Origin: Phycisphaerales bacterium
GTDB taxonomy: Bacteria; Planctomycetota; Phycisphaerae; Phycisphaerales; SM1A02
Reading direction: 5' to 3'
Length of the DNA: 64,000 bases
NCBI GenBank assembly: GCA_009691725.1
Contig: SIAP01000002.1
Span: forward strand, 62,001 to 126,000
This document shows positions 56,976 to 62,662 of the stretch, piece after piece. Below the pieces are notes generated by a model. It did no database searches and was not told where the DNA came from. It saw only the letters and a program-made list of their open reading frames with translations. Both the position numbers and the translations under genes were made by a program. Numbering within the stretch: the first letter of the stretch is position 1; the number at the start of each line of letters is the position of its first letter.

Positions 56976-57716
56976 TCAATGTCCGCGCGCGGCGGTCTTG
57001 GCTTTTGGTTTCGCCTTCGCTGCCGAAGCGGCAGATGCAGCTGCAGCACCGCGTGGCAACTTGATTGCCTCACGAGTTTTTCGCGCAACGTCTGCCTTGC
57101 CTGACTTATGGAAGGCGTCAACTGCAGCGGAGAGGGCAAAGTGCATCTCGCGCGATCGATCGCTCTTGAACTTCTTCGCGAAGATTTCGGTCAGCGCACT
57201 CGGCTTGATCGGCTCCGTGAGGACTTCATAGTGCGTCAACAGGTCAATCGTTGCCCAATCGATTGGCACGAGCGCAACCTCAAATCCCAGCAGCATGCAG
57301 CGCGAGACGACAAAAGTCGGCATTCCCTCGAGATTCTCCAGATAGGTGCGCACATCGCGCTTCGGCTTGCCAACAAGTTGCTCGAGTCCCACTCTGTGAT
57401 GTCGTCGAAAGAGATCAAAGAGCGTCATCCGTAATCTTCGCATCCGTTCAAATCCGTCTGGATACTTCGTGCCAATCGTCTCGACCATTTCCTCGACGAG
57501 GTTCACTCGGAACTCGTTGAAGTCAACATTGCGAGTACGAATCCGTTGCAACGCAGTATCTGCCATGTCGGTCGTTGCGTCGTAAAGCAGCGACGAATGC
57601 AGCATCAGTGCAAGCAGATCCGACGAATTCGGTTCCTCGGTACGCGCCCGAGCACTATATTTTTTCACCAGCGAATTCAAACGGTTGATATTGAATGCAG
57701 GCTTCTTTTCAGTCAC
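56976..57716 (-). CDS. Endonuclease III-fold (HhH-GPD-like) protein lacking catalytic Lys and FeS cysteines
   Basis: 246 residues. Compared from memory with endonuclease III, DLLALMLHSSLLYDATTDMA, the ETIGTKYPDGFERMRRLRMTL stretch (about 75-95) and LENLEGMPTFVVSRCMLLGF follow the Nth pattern of helix, TIG and helix-hairpin-helix. The Lys of LPGVGRKTA is replaced (GMPTFVV), the catalytic Asp is kept (PIDWAT) and the C-terminal four-cysteine cluster is absent. It may bind nucleic acid without glycosylase activity. A C-terminal Ala/Lys-rich tail follows. The ATG shares an ATGA overlap with rbfA, placing it in a translation operon, at the site where nrnA often lies. The function is unknown. Confidence 0.6.
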   Translation of the reverse strand: MTEKKPAFNINRLNSLVKKYSARARTEEPNSSDLLALMLHSSLLYDATTDMADTALQRIRTRNVDFNEFRVNLVEEMVETIGTKYPDGFERMRRLRMTLFDLFRRHHRVGLEQLVGKPKRDVRTYLENLEGMPTFVVSRCMLLGFEVALVPIDWATIDLLTHYEVLTEPIKPSALTEIFAKKFKSDRSREMHFALSAAVDAFHKSGKADVARKTREAIKLPRGAAAASAASAAKAKPKAKTAARGH

Positions 57717-58114
57717 GGGGATACCTCTTCGATGGGTGCTATGAGTTCAAAGGTGAGTTGCGGCACACGTCGCAGACTCGTTGTTTCGCGAAGCGACGAA
57801 CGGAAAAATCCAACCGCACTCTTGAGCGCAGCGAGTGAGAGCGGCCCTCGATCTGCGGGCAGCACTGACACCTTCGCCGTTGCATGGAGCAGGTCTGGAC
57901 TCATCCGCACTTCGATGACAGAGACCATGCCCTGGAGACGGGGATCTGAAAGACCTCGGACGATGCGATCTTGCAATGCGCGTTGCAGCACGCTGGCGAC
58001 TTGCGCAGGTCTGGAACTTGGAATCGCACCCCGGACACTGCCATCCGCAGCAAAGGATGTTCCCTGTGCCAGCCCAGCGGGAAGTCGTGGTCCTTTGGAG
58101 CGTCGCTCACGCAT
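57713..58114 (-). CDS. rbfA: Ribosome-binding factor A
   Basis: 133 residues. A KH-type domain (about 35-120) with QVASVLQRALQDRIVRGLSDPRLQGMVSVIEVRMSPDLLHA has the characteristic RbfA helix-strand pattern and the LxRVPQLTFEL strand near the end. It helps mature the 5' end of 16S rRNA in the small subunit. The start overlaps the infB stop by 8 bp and the stop overlaps the endonuclease III-like gene by four, so it is translationally coupled on both sides. An Arg/Gly/Ala-rich 30-residue N-terminal extension is unusual. Confidence 0.9.
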   Translation of the reverse strand: MRERRSKGPRLPAGLAQGTSFAADGSVRGAIPSSRPAQVASVLQRALQDRIVRGLSDPRLQGMVSVIEVRMSPDLLHATAKVSVLPADRGPLSLAALKSAVGFFRSSLRETTSLRRVPQLTFELIAPIEEVSP

Positions 58115-60908
58115 TGCCGCCCCCGAGCGGTCGAATTGTGACGGTGCGATAACACTCGATCACATCGCCTTCGCGAATATCGTCGTAGCCGTTGATCTTC
58201 ATGCCGCACTCATTGCCTGCGCGCACTTCCTTGGCATCATCCTTGAATCGCTTGAGTTGTTCGAGGCGACGATCTTTCTCCACCACGATTCCATCACGCG
58301 TCACGCGGATCTGCGCATTTCGTTCGACCACGCCATCGGTGACATAGCAGCCCGCAATCGCGCCGACCTTGGTGATCTTGAAGACCGCACGAACATCGGC
58401 ATGCCCAAGCACTTGGAGACGGACCTCTGGTTCGAGGAGGCCGCGGACTGCCTTTTCCATGTCATCGGTGAGTTGATAGATGACGTCATACATGCGGAGG
58501 TCAATCTTGCGAACCTCTGCGAGTTGTCGTGACTTGGCACTGCTAGTGACATTGAAACCAACGATGACTGCGCCAGTCGTCGCCGCCAATTCAACATCGC
58601 TCTCGTTGATTCCGCCGACTGCAGCATGCTTGATGGAAATGCTGACATCTTCCGCTTTGATTCGACCGAGGACGACCTTGAGAGTTTCGACAGATCCTTG
58701 CACATCGCCCTTGACAATCAGTGGCAGTTCCTTCTTCTTGGACTGTGCCATGGTTTCAAAAATGTTGTCGAGCGTGACCTTCGGCGCGGACAATTCACGA
58801 TTGCGTTCAAACGCGCGTCGTTCAATGGCAGCAAGTTCTGCGGCCGCAAGACTGTCGACCACATAAAACTTGTCGCCCGCGTCGGGAAGCATGTCGATGC
58901 CAGAAACGGCCACCGGGAAGGTGGGATCTGCACTGTTGATTCGCGCGTTGGAACCATTCACGATGTCGCGCACCCTGCCAAACGCCCGACCAACCACCAC
59001 AAAGTCGCCGCGCTTCAAGACCCCCTCTTGCACCAGCAGTTGCGCGACAGAACCACGACCCTCTTCCATGCGTGCTTCGAGGACGGTGCCCTGCGCATTT
59101 CCCCCCCAGTCCGCCTTCAACTCCAAGACATCCGCCTGCAACGCGATGAGTTCGAGCAACTCTGGAACTCCGGTGCCTTTCAGTCCACTCACCAATGCGA
59201 TTTCAACATCGCCTCCCCACGGAACGGGATTCAATTCTTGCCCGGCGAGTTCTCCATAGATTCGCTGCAAGTTCTTCTCGTCGAACTCGGGTCGATCGAT
59301 CTTGTTGAGCGCCACAATCACCTTCACCTTGGCAGCCTTGATGTGGTTGATGCTCTCGATGGTTTGGGGCATGACGCCATCGACTGCATCGATCACCAAC
59401 ACGACGATGTCTGTGACCTTCGCGCCACGGGATCGCATGGCTGTGAAGGCCTCATGACCCGGTGTATCGATAAAGGTGATCGTCCTCGTGTGATCGCCGA
59501 TCTCGACCGCCACCTGGAACGCGCGAGTGGACTGAGTGATGCCACCCGCTTCGCCTGCTGCAATCCTTGTGCTTCGGATTCGATCGAGCAGTGTTGTCTT
59601 GCCGTGATCGACATGTCCCAAGATCGTCACCACAGGGGGGCGCGCGCGCTCATCTGATCGAGTACGACTCGCGGCTCGTTCTTCGATCTCATCCGAGGCG
59701 GTCTTCGCGGCCTTGATCTCCACTTCAAGGTTGAATTCCATCATCAACTCGGCGGCTTGTTCACCATTGAGCGCCGTGTTGATCGTGATTGGATTGCCGG
59801 AGAGGAGTGACTTCTTCATCAATTCAGAAACCTTGACTCCAGTGAGCGCTGACAGTTCCTTGACCGAGACCGGGTCTGGAACTTGCACGGGACCTTGCGG
59901 CTTGGCGACAACTGTGCGCGCGTGCGAAGCATGCGAACGAGCATTCGTGACCGATCGGTGCTTTTTGAAGAACCCCGTCGCGCCTTCGATGCGACTTGCC
60001 CGATCAGCGAGATCTTTCGATCGGAATCCATCGGGTCCAGTCTGTCCAGCACGACCCGTTCGACCCGAATCTGTCGGCCGACGATTTGCTGCGCCAGAAC
60101 CGCCCCGAGTGCTGCCGCCCGCAGGTCGAGGAAACTGGCGCGGACCACTTGGGGGGCGAGGAGCTGGCACGTTGTCTGCGGCATCCACTCGGATCACCTT
60201 CGGTCCCGCGAGGGGGGTCTTTCCGGGCTGTTGGAGCAACTCCGCCGTGGGACGCGCACGAACCGGACGCGTCGGCACATTCATCGGCGCTGGAATAATC
60301 GGTGCGGGAGGCTTCACAGGCGCGACTGGTTTCACAGGCGCGACCGGTTTCTGCGAAGCAGTTGGCGCAGCTGGCGCACTTGGCGCCGCCGCTTCCTTTC
60401 CGGGAGCGAACGCAGTCGGCGATTTCGTGGGCGCGACGAAAGGTGCGACAAAAGGTTCGACAGTTCGAATCCGCGTTGCTCCAGGCGATGCCGCAGTTGC
60501 GGGCTTCGGGGAAATGTTGGCGGATGTTGAAGTCGCAGGCGATGGCGTCGCAATCGGTTCAGTTGGAATCGGCGCCGAGATCGTGACCGAGCGAGTGATG
60601 GCGTCCTTCGCGGGTTCAGTGACGAGATCGGGTTTTGCCGTCTTCTTCTTGGGAGTTGCGGCCTGTCCGCGTTTCTTTGCTGCGGAAATGTCGACGCTCT
60701 GTGCTGTTTCAGTTGCGGTTGATGGACCGACGGCTCCGCCGAACCATTCCTTGATCGTCTCCGCCAATCCAGCTCCGATGGTTCCTTGTGGCGTGGTCAC
60801 ACCTTCGACACCTTCGAGGAGGCACTTCTCGATGATGTCCTTCGCGGTCACTCCGAGTTCTTTCGCGACCTGAGTGATGCGAATTTTCTTTACTGTGCTG
60901 GTCGCCAC
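58107..60908 (-). CDS. infB: Translation initiation factor IF-2
   Basis: 933 residues from GTG at 60908, preceded by GGAG six bases upstream; the open frame up to 61190 has no IF-2 similarity. An IF2_N domain (about 3-50, [20 protein letters not shown]) leads to a Pro/Ala/Lys-rich linker of about 280 residues with VKPVAP repeats. A second IF2_N-like domain ([21 protein letters not shown]) is followed by the GTPase core: GHVDHGKTT near residue 430, DTPGHEAF near 483 and NKID near 535. The C1/C2 domains then bind initiator tRNA. It delivers fMet-tRNA to the ribosome. A 106-bp gap separates it from nusA without obvious signals except the Shine-Dalgarno. Confidence 0.97.
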
Positions 60909-61014
60909 GAGTTGCTCCGATAGAAGGGTTGGGATGAGGAATGATTCATTAGAGAAGACGCTCGTATCAGCGAGAAGATGCCCACGCCAACAGTCACTTG
61001 CACGGATGCGGGCA

Positions 61015-62343
61015 TCATGAGTTGGTGGGTCCCAATCCAAGAATGTTGTCCGCCGCCGACTCGCTCTGTTGATCCGTTGCCGCCGCTGGAATTGCTGGAC
61101 CGCCACCGAGAAGTGCGTCCACGACCGCACCCTCTTGTGCCTGCAGCAGTTCGGCGGCGGTGCGATCGCGCTGCATTTCCTCTGCCACAATTTTCGCGCG
61201 GTCAGAACATGCGTCCACCACCTGCGTCGCCAGCTCGTCGGTCATGCCGCACTCGGCAACCAAACTGGCTTCACCGATCTCCTCAACATCAAAGACGCTA
61301 ATCATGCCGAGCGCACCCATGCGATCGAGCATCTCATCTGTTGCGCCCTCCACGGATTTCACAGCAGCCTGCAGCGTCTGCAAACCCTTCTCAAATTCGG
61401 GTGGTGTGAGGATGTCGACATCCCATCCAGTCAAGCGGGCTGCGAGGCGAACATTCTGCCCGCGACGACCGATGGCAAGCGAAAGTTGATCTTCGCGAAC
61501 AATGATGGTCGCACGGCCGAGTTCGAAACACAGACTGACTTCTTCGACTTCGGCGGGCTTGAGCGCATTCGAGATGAGCACCTGGCTGGACTCGTTCCAT
61601 CGCACGATGTCAATCTTTTCGCCACCGAGTTCATCAACGATGTTGCGAATTCGCGAACCACGAACTCCCACGCAAGCGCCGACCGCGTCGACCTTGGAAT
61701 CGACCGACGACACAGCGAGTTTGGTCCGAAACCCAGGCTCGCGCGACATCGCCTTGATCTCAATCGTCCGTTCTGCAACCTCTGGCACTTCAGACTCGAA
61801 CAGTCGGCGAATGAAATCGGGGTGAGCGCGGCTCATGACGATCTTGACTTGGCTTCCAGCGTCCCGCACATCCAACAGGATGCATCGGACGCGGTCCCCT
61901 GCCTGAAACTGCTCGCCCGGAATCTGCTCGCTTTTTGGCATGAAACCCTCGGCGCGTTCAAGTTGGACGATGAGCGCATTGCCTTCGTACCGTTGGGCGA
62001 CTCCGGTGACAAGCTCTCCTTGTCGCTTTGAAAACTCCTCGAGCAATGACACGCGTTCATTTTCGCGGAAGCGTTGAATCATGACCTGCTTCGCAGTTTG
62101 GGCTGGAATGCGACCGAGTTTCTCGAGTGGGATGACTTCGCGGGTTCCCTCGTCGGTATTGCGCCAGAGTGAAATCGAGCCACCCAATCGGTCGATTTCG
62201 CAGCCGAATTCATCGTCCAACTCGGAGTTGAAGTGCTTGCGGGCAGCGCTCACCATCGCGAGTTCGAGATCCTGAACGAGCAGTTCACGGTCGATGTTTC
62301 GATCGCGGGCCACTGAGTCAAGGAGACGGATAATTTCATTCAT
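61015..62343 (-). CDS. nusA: Transcription elongation/termination factor NusA
   Basis: 442 residues. The N-terminal RNA-polymerase-binding domain (about 1-120) precedes an S1 domain (about 125-190, LVTGVAQRYEGNALIV). KH1 and KH2 domains follow (about 210-330, VGVRGSRIRNIVDELGGEKIDIV and AIGRRGQNVRLAARLTGWDV). A helix-hairpin-helix-like acidic region (about 360-400) and a short Ala/Gly tail complete it. It modulates pausing, termination and antitermination. The ATG at 62343 has AAAGGA 8 nt upstream. It is the first gene of the operon and lies downstream of a long structured leader with a terminator (62376-62412), so NusA may regulate its own synthesis. Confidence 0.97.
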   Translation of the reverse strand: MNEIIRLLDSVARDRNIDRELLVQDLELAMVSAARKHFNSELDDEFGCEIDRLGGSISLWRNTDEGTREVIPLEKLGRIPAQTAKQVMIQRFRENERVSLLEEFSKRQGELVTGVAQRYEGNALIVQLERAEGFMPKSEQIPGEQFQAGDRVRCILLDVRDAGSQVKIVMSRAHPDFIRRLFESEVPEVAERTIEIKAMSREPGFRTKLAVSSVDSKVDAVGACVGVRGSRIRNIVDELGGEKIDIVRWNESSQVLISNALKPAEVEEVSLCFELGRATIIVREDQLSLAIGRRGQNVRLAARLTGWDVDILTPPEFEKGLQTLQAAVKSVEGATDEMLDRMGALGMISVFDVEEIGEASLVAECGMTDELATQVVDACSDRAKIVAEEMQRDRTAAELLQAQEGAVVDALLGGGPAIPAAATDQQSESAADNILGLGPTNS

Positions 62344-62375
62344 GGGATCAGTCCTTTCAAATTGTCACCGCGAAT

Positions 62376-62412
62376 AAAAAAGGTCATGAGCGCCGCGGTA
62401 GCGATCATGACC
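62376..62412 (-). terminator. Intrinsic terminator in the nusA leader (attenuator)
   Basis: On the minus strand GGTCATGA (62412-62405) and TCATGACC (62389-62382) form a perfect 8-bp stem, lengthened by an inner CGC/GCG. Six Us follow (62381-62376). Because it is between the promoter and the nusA ATG, and no minus-strand gene lies upstream, it can only act on the nusA message. No other gene end in the window shows a comparable terminator. Confidence 0.75.
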
Positions 62413-62415
62413 CGT

Positions 62416-62458
62416 CCGACTGCGCTCGCAGAATCGGTCAACCCATATGGGTCTCCGA
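62416..62458 (-). promoter_or_regulatory. Two mutually exclusive hairpins upstream of the nusA attenuator
   Basis: On the minus strand one hairpin is TCGG-(AG)-ACCC-ATAT-GGGT-(TGA)-CCGA (62458-62434). The next is CCGA-(TT)-CTGC-GAGC-GCAG-TCGG (62437-62416). Both need the same CCGA at 62437-62434, so only one can form. The second ends three bases before the terminator stem. Confidence 0.6.
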
Positions 62459-62483
62459 CGATGCGATCGCCCTTGCCGATACC

Positions 62484-62520
62484 ACCTGCGAATGGACGCA
62501 ACAGCGCGTCATACGCAGGT
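62484..62520 (-). promoter_or_regulatory. Nested stem-loop in the nusA leader
   Basis: ACCTGCG (62520-62514 on the minus strand) pairs with CGCAGGT (62490-62484). An inner five-base stem GACGC/GCGTC (62510-62506 with 62499-62495) closes a six-base loop. All pairs are perfect, so this is a strong structural element. Confidence 0.65.
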
Positions 62521-62633
62521 ACGAGAAGCCGAATTGACACGAGCCAAGAAAATCATCTGCATGGTCGCTCTCAAGAGTGCGGCGGACAAGGGACGGACGG
62601 GTTCCTGCGGAGTTCATCCCCACAGGAGGAACC

Positions 62634-62662
62634 ATTGTAGTGCAAGAACCCCCATTTTTCAA
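62634..62662 (-). promoter_or_regulatory. sigma70-type promoter for the nusA operon
   Basis: TTGAAA (62662-62657) and TACAAT (62639-62634) on the minus strand are separated by exactly 17 bp, and each matches five of six consensus bases. The predicted start is near 62627. A 7-bp inverted repeat GGTTCCT/AGGAACC (62633-62627 with 62606-62600) begins at the start of the transcript. Confidence 0.65.

Follow-up and report, generated by a model that had tools for sequence, protein, structure and literature searches.

A promoter, a leader and an intrinsic terminator in front of the nusA-infB-rbfA operon were confirmed in the window, as we call the whole stretch of 64,000 nucleotides that was analysed. 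The best explanation of this arrangement, which we believe about as much as we doubt, is a cis-acting, translation-coupled transcription attenuator of the operon. The first-pass annotation had proposed an attenuator here, made up of a promoter and a terminator with NusA feedback. Attenuation stands as the best reading and the arrangement is conserved, but the leader holds more than was described: a folded domain, two overlapping short open reading frames (ORFs) and an element in which a single free codon stands between a start codon and a stop codon (start-X-stop). These features point to translation as an input.

Leader sets

Counts are given for 113 leaders of the order, namely 95 non-redundant leaders and 18 further ones, with 66 leaders from other classes for comparison. 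Named loci sharing the 150 nt upstream with an earlier leader were dropped, as were L102 (without upstream sequence) and L224 (without a NusA match), and L207, L233 and L234, which are from the same class, were left out of the other-class set. Single-linkage clustering (blastn) gave 33 clusters of uneven size, the two largest comprising 52 and 18 leaders. The leaders are related; the shuffle controls ignore this relatedness and the cluster counts correct for it only roughly. The order appears to be Phycisphaerales, 34 of the 80 named relatives being titled Phycisphaerales, Phycisphaerae or Phycisphaera (hand count), and the sequences of several named relatives are identical to same-genus leaders. 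The titles of L083, L084, L086, L087 and L135 (Singulisphaera sp. GP187) and of L124 (Chitinophaga pinensis) seem not to fit and are probably wrong, because the NusA sequences match that of the window at 75-93% and the leaders equal or resemble those of the Phycisphaerales set. A search of 61 genomes, 60 relatives besides the window's own, found PF08529 in 59.

Promoter, terminator and operon

The genes of the operon and the elements that frame the leader are the following.
62634..62662, minus strand: promoter, TTGAAA (62662..62657), 17-nt spacer and TACAAT (62639..62634), from consensus match and conservation
62382..62412, minus strand: terminator stem-loop with arms GGTCATGA (62412..62405) and TCATGACC (62389..62382), from scan, fold and covariation
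62376..62381, minus strand: U-tract of six U, from the sequence
62352..62357, minus strand: AAAGGA, likely ribosome binding site of nusA, from the sequence
61015..62343, minus strand: nusA (NusA_N, KH_5), from Pfam
58107..61190, minus strand: infB (IF-2), from Pfam; the mechanical ORF overlaps nusA
57713..58114, minus strand: rbfA, from Pfam

The Pfam identities agree with the nusA, infB and rbfA assignments made at first pass. The true start of infB probably lies further in than that of the mechanical ORF. Between rbfA and a YebC-like gene there is a 246-aa ORF (56976..57716, minus strand) without a Pfam match at 1e-5. The upstream neighbour, a DsbD-like gene (Pfam) on the plus strand from 62698, is divergent and the terminator is therefore not its own. 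Promoter, terminator and nusA follow one another in this order with no separate nusA promoter in between (promoters being judged by consensus only), and the gap of 32 nt between the U-tract and the start codon is too short to hold one; the last U (62376) lies 33 bases 5' of the nusA start at 62343. Transcription presumably begins at the 62662..62634 promoter and runs through nusA, infB and rbfA as one unit. Just upstream of the nusA start codon, CAACAACTCAA-like repeat runs are seen in L142, L143, L150, L151 and L160.

The match to the promoter consensus is by itself at chance level, with one found against 0.7 expected from shuffles of 3 kb. TTGAAAAA and the -10 element recur at equal spacing in 11 of the 16 same-genus leaders that have at least 400 nt of upstream sequence; the motif is missing in L036, L039, L041, L044 and L048, and L034 and L049, which are cut short, fall outside the 16. 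The minus-strand TTGAAA-N17-TACAAT promoter named at first pass is thus present at 62662..62634 and kept in most of the genus, and the leader measures about 284 nt where about 285 had been given.

The terminator stem consists of 8 + 4 pairs, includes one mismatch and carries a loop of 5 nt (-16.9 kcal/mol, z -4.1); this GC-containing stem directly abuts the U-tract, as in an intrinsic terminator. The earlier description of an 8-bp stem followed by six Us was right as to the terminator and the six U; the stem is longer and interrupted. A wider scan of the 64 kb, covering both strands, gave 33 candidates, among which this terminator scored highest (38.5, the runner-up reaching 32.6), in line with the earlier remark that the window holds no other convincing terminator. 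A simple scanner with a loop limit of 8 nt left it unlisted, we suppose because the mismatch makes the loop 15 nt long. The 319-nt stretch 62344-62662 folds better than 100 of 100 shuffles (z -3.0).

A lack of conservation of the stem and U-tract in relatives had been named as grounds for abandoning the attenuator. A hairpin with a U-rich tail was found in 35 of 41 nusA upstream regions; five shuffles gave 1-4 of 41, and elsewhere 53 of 804 stretches had one. The pattern of the hairpin arms (U-tract not required) precedes nusA in 91 of the 113 order leaders and in 23 of 33 clusters, against 1 of 66 other-class leaders. With another hairpin pattern and a longer stretch, the other families of the order gave 6 of 18 against 5 of 66 in other classes, and the hairpin is therefore mainly a feature of the family. 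The terminator regex failed in 17 of the 95 leaders, among which L131, L066 and L112 show a hairpin by eye.

Conservation and fold of the leader

A covariance search of nusA leaders in relatives, a check suggested at first pass, was made with a model of the leader core (161 positions, 18 sequences). The model matches 18 of 19 same-genus genomes (E <= 5e-29) with one strong match per genome, each directly upstream of nusA; the 19th genome, G003, has neither such a strong match nor a nusA match. Since the matches always adjoin nusA, the leader RNA is linked to this gene. Model R1 is confined to the genus: beyond it, a match at E up to 1 was seen in 10 of 42 genomes, and it adjoins nusA in G023, G033 and G035 only. 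Further weak R1 matches within the genus lie on the opposite strand of the same hairpin or on other contigs.

The fold comprises a hairpin at the 5' end (H1), a helix closing a domain (P1), two hairpins (P2 and P3) and the terminator.
62604..62626, minus strand: H1, 5' hairpin at the likely transcript start (CCTGTGGGG / CTCCGCAGG), several pairs changed on both sides
62594..62602, minus strand: P1 5' strand (ACCCGTCCG), from the fold
62492..62512, minus strand: P2 hairpin (ATGACGC / GCGTCCAT), holding the uORF2 start codon, from fold and covariation
62410..62418, minus strand: P1 3' strand (CGGACGGGT), from the fold; the last three bases of the strand (62412..62410) serve as the foot of the terminator stem as well

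Changes in the stems are compensated and the covariation supports this fold. On the 18-sequence alignment 93.8% of the cells are paired, against 85.1% in shuffles, and 74 cells are changed on both sides, against 23.7 in shuffles, a number that none of 500 shuffles reached. When the 21 nt of P2 are folded in isolation, the AUG lies outside the stem except for its G.

No Rfam family matched at gathering score in the window or in 13 relatives' loci; four sub-threshold matches lie far below their gathering scores. A phage collection gave no match at 1e-5. 6S RNA (RF00013) was considered as a candidate and dropped, there being no match on the leader in 61 genomes. Weak, sub-cut-off 6S matches were seen on other contigs in 5 of 19 genus genomes (G001:C13, G009:C104, G011:C4, G012:C214 and G016:C37) and possibly mark the true 6S gene.

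Overlapping short ORFs

Two short ORFs, uORF1 and uORF2, overlap within the leader.
62509..62562, minus strand: uORF1, ATG to TGA, 17 codons (MQMIFLARVNSASRTCV and stop), its TGA overlapping the uORF2 ATG (ATGA), from the reading frames
62438..62512, minus strand: uORF2, 24 codons (MTRCCVHSQVVSARAIASSETHMG and stop), from reading frames and pair statistics

As in leader-ORF attenuators, a short ORF is conserved in its layout. In leaders read by eye, P2 opens with an ATG whose frame meets a stop at the end of P3. An ATGA pair, defined as an ORF2 of 18-60 codons and an ORF1 of at least 8 codons from ATG or GTG, occurs in 64 of the 95 non-redundant leaders, against a mean of 6.55 (range 2-11) in 20 block shuffles. 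Of the 113 order leaders, 68 have the pair, and in 17 of 33 clusters most leaders do; the count among other-class leaders is 10 of 66. The other families of the order, with 3 of 18, are hardly above the other classes, for which 7 of 66 was counted in this comparison, and conservation of the overlap appears to be mainly at the family level. The uORF2 start is preceded by TGATG instead in L065, L108-L111 and L113 (by eye).

Selection on the uORF2 protein was not found within the genus (10 sequences), where single-nucleotide codon differences comprise 220 amino-acid-changing and 59 silent changes, with 212 and 67 expected. The changes are spread evenly over the codon positions (10/16/13), which suits leader ORFs and equally suits untranslated RNA. 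A conserved small protein was ruled out, since amino-acid constraint is missing; if the ORFs are translated, it would be the act of translating that matters and not the peptide. We also rejected a longer ORF from the ATG in H1, because its frame relative to uORF2 differs between leaders. In the reading favoured below, the leader ORFs would be translated. With the main ORF taken for each leader, the uORF2 stop lies between 19 and 70 nt away from P1, so that a ribosome there cannot block the terminator equally everywhere.

The start-X-stop element

uORF2 is terminated by an element in which GGAG is followed, after a few bases, by a start codon, a single free codon and a stop.
62438..62456, minus strand: start-X-stop element, GGAG (62456..62453) and ATG GGT TGA (62446..62438), within the P3 hairpin and in frame with the end of uORF2, from cross-leader counts

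Searched from -420 to -50 of nusA, the element was found in 74 of 113 order leaders and 22 of 33 clusters; the other-class leaders gave 3 of 66, and stretches of 370 nt from elsewhere gave 23 of 2116. Replacing its NTG by NTA, NTC or NTT reduced the count to 2, 9 and 5 of the 113 order leaders, and by NCG, NAG or NGG to 18, 3 and 6. At the level of sequence, these counts demonstrate that the element is specific for a start codon. Among 56 distinct elements the start codon is ATG in 42, GTG in 7, TTG in 5 and CTG in 2, and the stop is TGA in 45, TAA in 6 and TAG in 5; 18 different middle codons occur among 53 elements, and three elements have none. The order's 16S rRNA carries the anti-Shine-Dalgarno sequence CCTCC (L173 and L174, reverse strand).

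The element and the ATGA pair share their stop in 49 of the 53 leaders (of 95) that have both; L051, L058, L062 and L152 differ. In other families of the order the element is present in 10 of 18 leaders. In the same-class leaders L207, L233 and L234, two of which (L207 and L234) come from one genome, G109, the strict form is found in none of three and a broad form in all three; the broad form also occurs in 6 of 66 other-class leaders. Among the 113 order leaders, 39 lack the strict element and 28 the broad one. The frame of the element's stop is open upstream for a median of 75 codons, and for at least 25 codons in 73 of 74 leaders. The other two frames are also often open (at least 25 codons in 25 of 74 and 57 of 74), so that an open frame counts for little as evidence, and the start assigned to uORF2 is uncertain.

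Modelled competition at the terminator foot and a candidate pseudoknot

The switch calculations are thermodynamic models of isolated RNA. In 15 of the 17 same-genus leaders modelled, the GGG foot of the terminator pairs with a distant upstream strand with a probability of at least 0.97 as long as the 3' arm does not yet exist. The probability modelled for the outermost terminator pair of the complete leader is 0.01-0.95; with the P1 5' strand blocked it reaches at least 0.66 in 14 of 15 leaders. In L039 the outermost pair falls instead on blocking P1, and in L038 it is already at 0.95 and P1 is nearly without effect. P1 and the terminator have only about three pairs in common, and in the models P1 competes only for the terminator foot. 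Ribosome-sized masks over the start-X-stop element or the ATGA hardly changed the predicted terminator core (0.83-1.00, both free and masked), and such a mask was rejected as a switch of the core. The three bases that P1 shares with the terminator foot make a possible switch in these models.

The terminator loop is complementary to a strand just past the U-tract.
62394..62399, minus strand: terminator loop strand ACCGCG, complementary to 62372..62367, from covariation
62367..62372, minus strand: CGCGGT, partner of the terminator loop, followed by GACAAT (62366..62361), from covariation

The partner strand lies just before the GACA motif. The pairing is ACCGCG/CGCGGT in the window and most of the genus, GCCGCG/CGCGGC in L034, L036 and L041, GCCTCG/CGAGGC in L054, GCTGCG/CGCAGC in L063, GCCGC/GCGGC in L065, L108-L111 and L113, and GCCGT/ACGGC in L096, L100 and L101. 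For the test we took, from the 78 leaders with a regex terminator, the 61 that have GACA[AT] downstream; 33 of these have a complementary run of at least six bases, compared with 19.5% of pairs after swapping and 9.2% after shuffling. Runs are shorter in the remaining tested leaders, for L098 and L099 because a later GACA was picked by the script; L131 was judged by eye only. The covariation of the loop with the strand past the U-tract suggests a pseudoknot in some members of the family. Read-through RNA is the only RNA on which it could form, and its role there, at a guess, would be protection of the mRNA or tuning of nusA translation.

Alternative explanations

Plain NusA feedback would have NusA stimulate termination at the hairpin, an action also proposed for the rimP-leader of other bacteria, and the ORFs would be a by-product of a folded leader. 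For B. subtilis, termination stimulated by NusA in the nusA leader is reported (PMC12288461), the GGGc(...)gCCC motif of the rimP-leader (PMC2965389) is echoed by GGGYCAYG...CRTGRCC-like arms in many leaders here, and 24 of 113 order leaders and none of 66 others carry ACAACTNAAYA within the 110 nt that precede nusA. An exact longer pattern is, however, not confined to nusA (10 matches in 14 genomes against 8 read backwards, with 3 of the 10 before nusA by position), and neither the overlapped ORF pairs nor the start-codon-specific start-X-stop element is explained. We regard this account as unlikely, while giving it real weight. A ligand- or protein-sensing RNA of the riboswitch or ribosomal-protein leader type, with P1, P2 and P3 as the sensor and translation uninvolved, would suit the multi-branch domain that P1 closes beside the terminator and the covariation within it. 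It would need another cause for the conserved start codons, stops and overlaps and for the coincidence of P2 and P3 with an ORF start and an ORF end, and together with the result that 13 loci and the window are without an Rfam family at gathering score this makes it improbable.

The promoter and terminator do frame a compact folded RNA of about 250 nt, as they would in a free-standing gene for a small RNA or small protein whose terminator happens to precede nusA. We consider this quite improbable: there is one strong match per genome, adjoining nusA in 18 of 18 same-genus genomes with a match, only 32 nt separate the U-tract from the nusA start, the peptides are not conserved and no Rfam family matches. 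Slightly less room is left for short ORFs that act mainly against Rho or on nusA translation and not on the intrinsic terminator, the least probable of these accounts. The toiL upstream ORF does act through translation and Rho (PMC12121999), and the pseudoknot of the terminator loop would form only on read-through RNA, here close to the nusA start; against this, the terminator itself is conserved.

The ACAACTNAAYA motif, which we take to resemble the mycobacterial NusA binding site, has one further occurrence elsewhere in the 95-locus set; the window (62366..62344) has only GACAAT. A NusA-site-like element common to 16S leaders was sought and rejected, CAACTCAA, CTCAAYA and AACTCAA being absent from the 1500 nt before 16S in L171 and L172. 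The 16S leaders do hold the stretches CTCTTTGGCAAGTGAACAGTTG (L172) and TTCTTTGACAAGTGAACAGTTG (L171) upstream of 16S rRNA, which are boxA-like.

Relation to known systems

For PMC12288461, PMC6511841, PMC12121999 and PMC8092293, the comparison covers parts of each paper. NusA feedback on its own operon had been cited at first pass for E. coli only; B. subtilis is also reported to autoregulate by NusA-stimulated termination in the nusA leader (PMC12288461), so that an attenuator of the nusA operon is already known as a class. The two leaders are alike in having an intrinsic terminator in the 5' leader; coupled short ORFs and a start-X-stop element are not mentioned in the part of that paper covered, and an action of NusA would be presumed here.

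A short leader with a terminator has been described before rimP-nusA-infB in many bacteria, in which rimP is the first gene of the operon (PMC2965389). RimP_N was not found in any of 21 genomes searched (G000 and 20 relatives). The rimP-leader (Naville and Gautheret 2010) resembles the present one in the terminator before the operon, the G-rich 5' arm and the C-rich 3' arm (PMC2965389). Compared with its GGGc(...)gCCC motif, the 5' arm here is of the GGGYCAYG type and the 3' arm of the window ends in GACC. The authors report no larger conserved elements in its general form (PMC2965389), whereas the present leader has a folded domain that includes P1, as well as two ORFs and perhaps a pseudoknot. 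Neither 'Planctomycet' nor 'Rhodopirellula' appears in the main text of that paper (PMC2965389).

In E. coli, the terminators t1 and t2 lie upstream of rimP in rimP-nusA-infB, similarly placed to the one described here, with promoters and terminators around the tRNA gene metY (PMC6511841); by inspection, no tRNA gene was noticed in the present leader. In toiL-topAI (PMC12121999) and TnaC, as is proposed here, translation of upstream short ORFs controls expression; here, in contrast, the peptide is not conserved, the constant part is a start codon, a free codon and a stop, and the target is nusA-infB. The translation-aborting short ORF mgtQ also overlaps alternative stem-loops, but acts on mgtB translation and needs acidic residues (PMC8092293). 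In the open-licence literature searched, we found no description of overlapping ORFs, a start-X-stop element or a P1 overlap before nusA.

Proposed mechanism and significance

In the translation-coupled attenuator that we favour, RNA polymerase would start near 62627 and the leader would either end at the terminator (62376) or continue into nusA. A ribosome would translate uORF1 and re-initiate at the ATGA on uORF2, whose start codon lies in hairpin P2; uORF2 translation would end at the start-X-stop site, where direct initiation may occur too. Before the 3' arm of the terminator exists, the closing helix P1 would hold its 5' foot (GGG), and P1 would then compete with the lowest terminator pairs, those beside the U-tract. 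With plentiful initiation, ribosomes would stay in the leader, P1 would be disfavoured and the complete terminator would form. With scarce initiation, for example when there is little IF2, P1 would form and weaken the terminator foot, raising nusA-infB expression. NusA probably acts on the terminator too, as in B. subtilis. We infer this switch, its direction and its signal, including the sensing of initiation via IF2, from the features described above.

The leader probably adjusts the amount of the transcription and translation factors encoded in the operon and perhaps senses how well translation starts. The broader proposal, an order-wide initiation sensor in which a start-X-stop element ending a coupled leader ORF before a terminator sets the supply of IF2, NusA and RbfA, is put forward tentatively and we lean towards doubting it. 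To our knowledge, descriptions of how the nusA/IF2 operon is controlled come mainly from E. coli and B. subtilis. Both NusA and IF2 belong to the core factors, and their level should match growth. The leader is a candidate RNA family for the annotation of Planctomycetota. If the proposal is true, the start-X-stop element with its free middle codon would report initiation directly and independently of any peptide, and the shared operon would let the cell measure its initiation capacity and set its supply of IF2.
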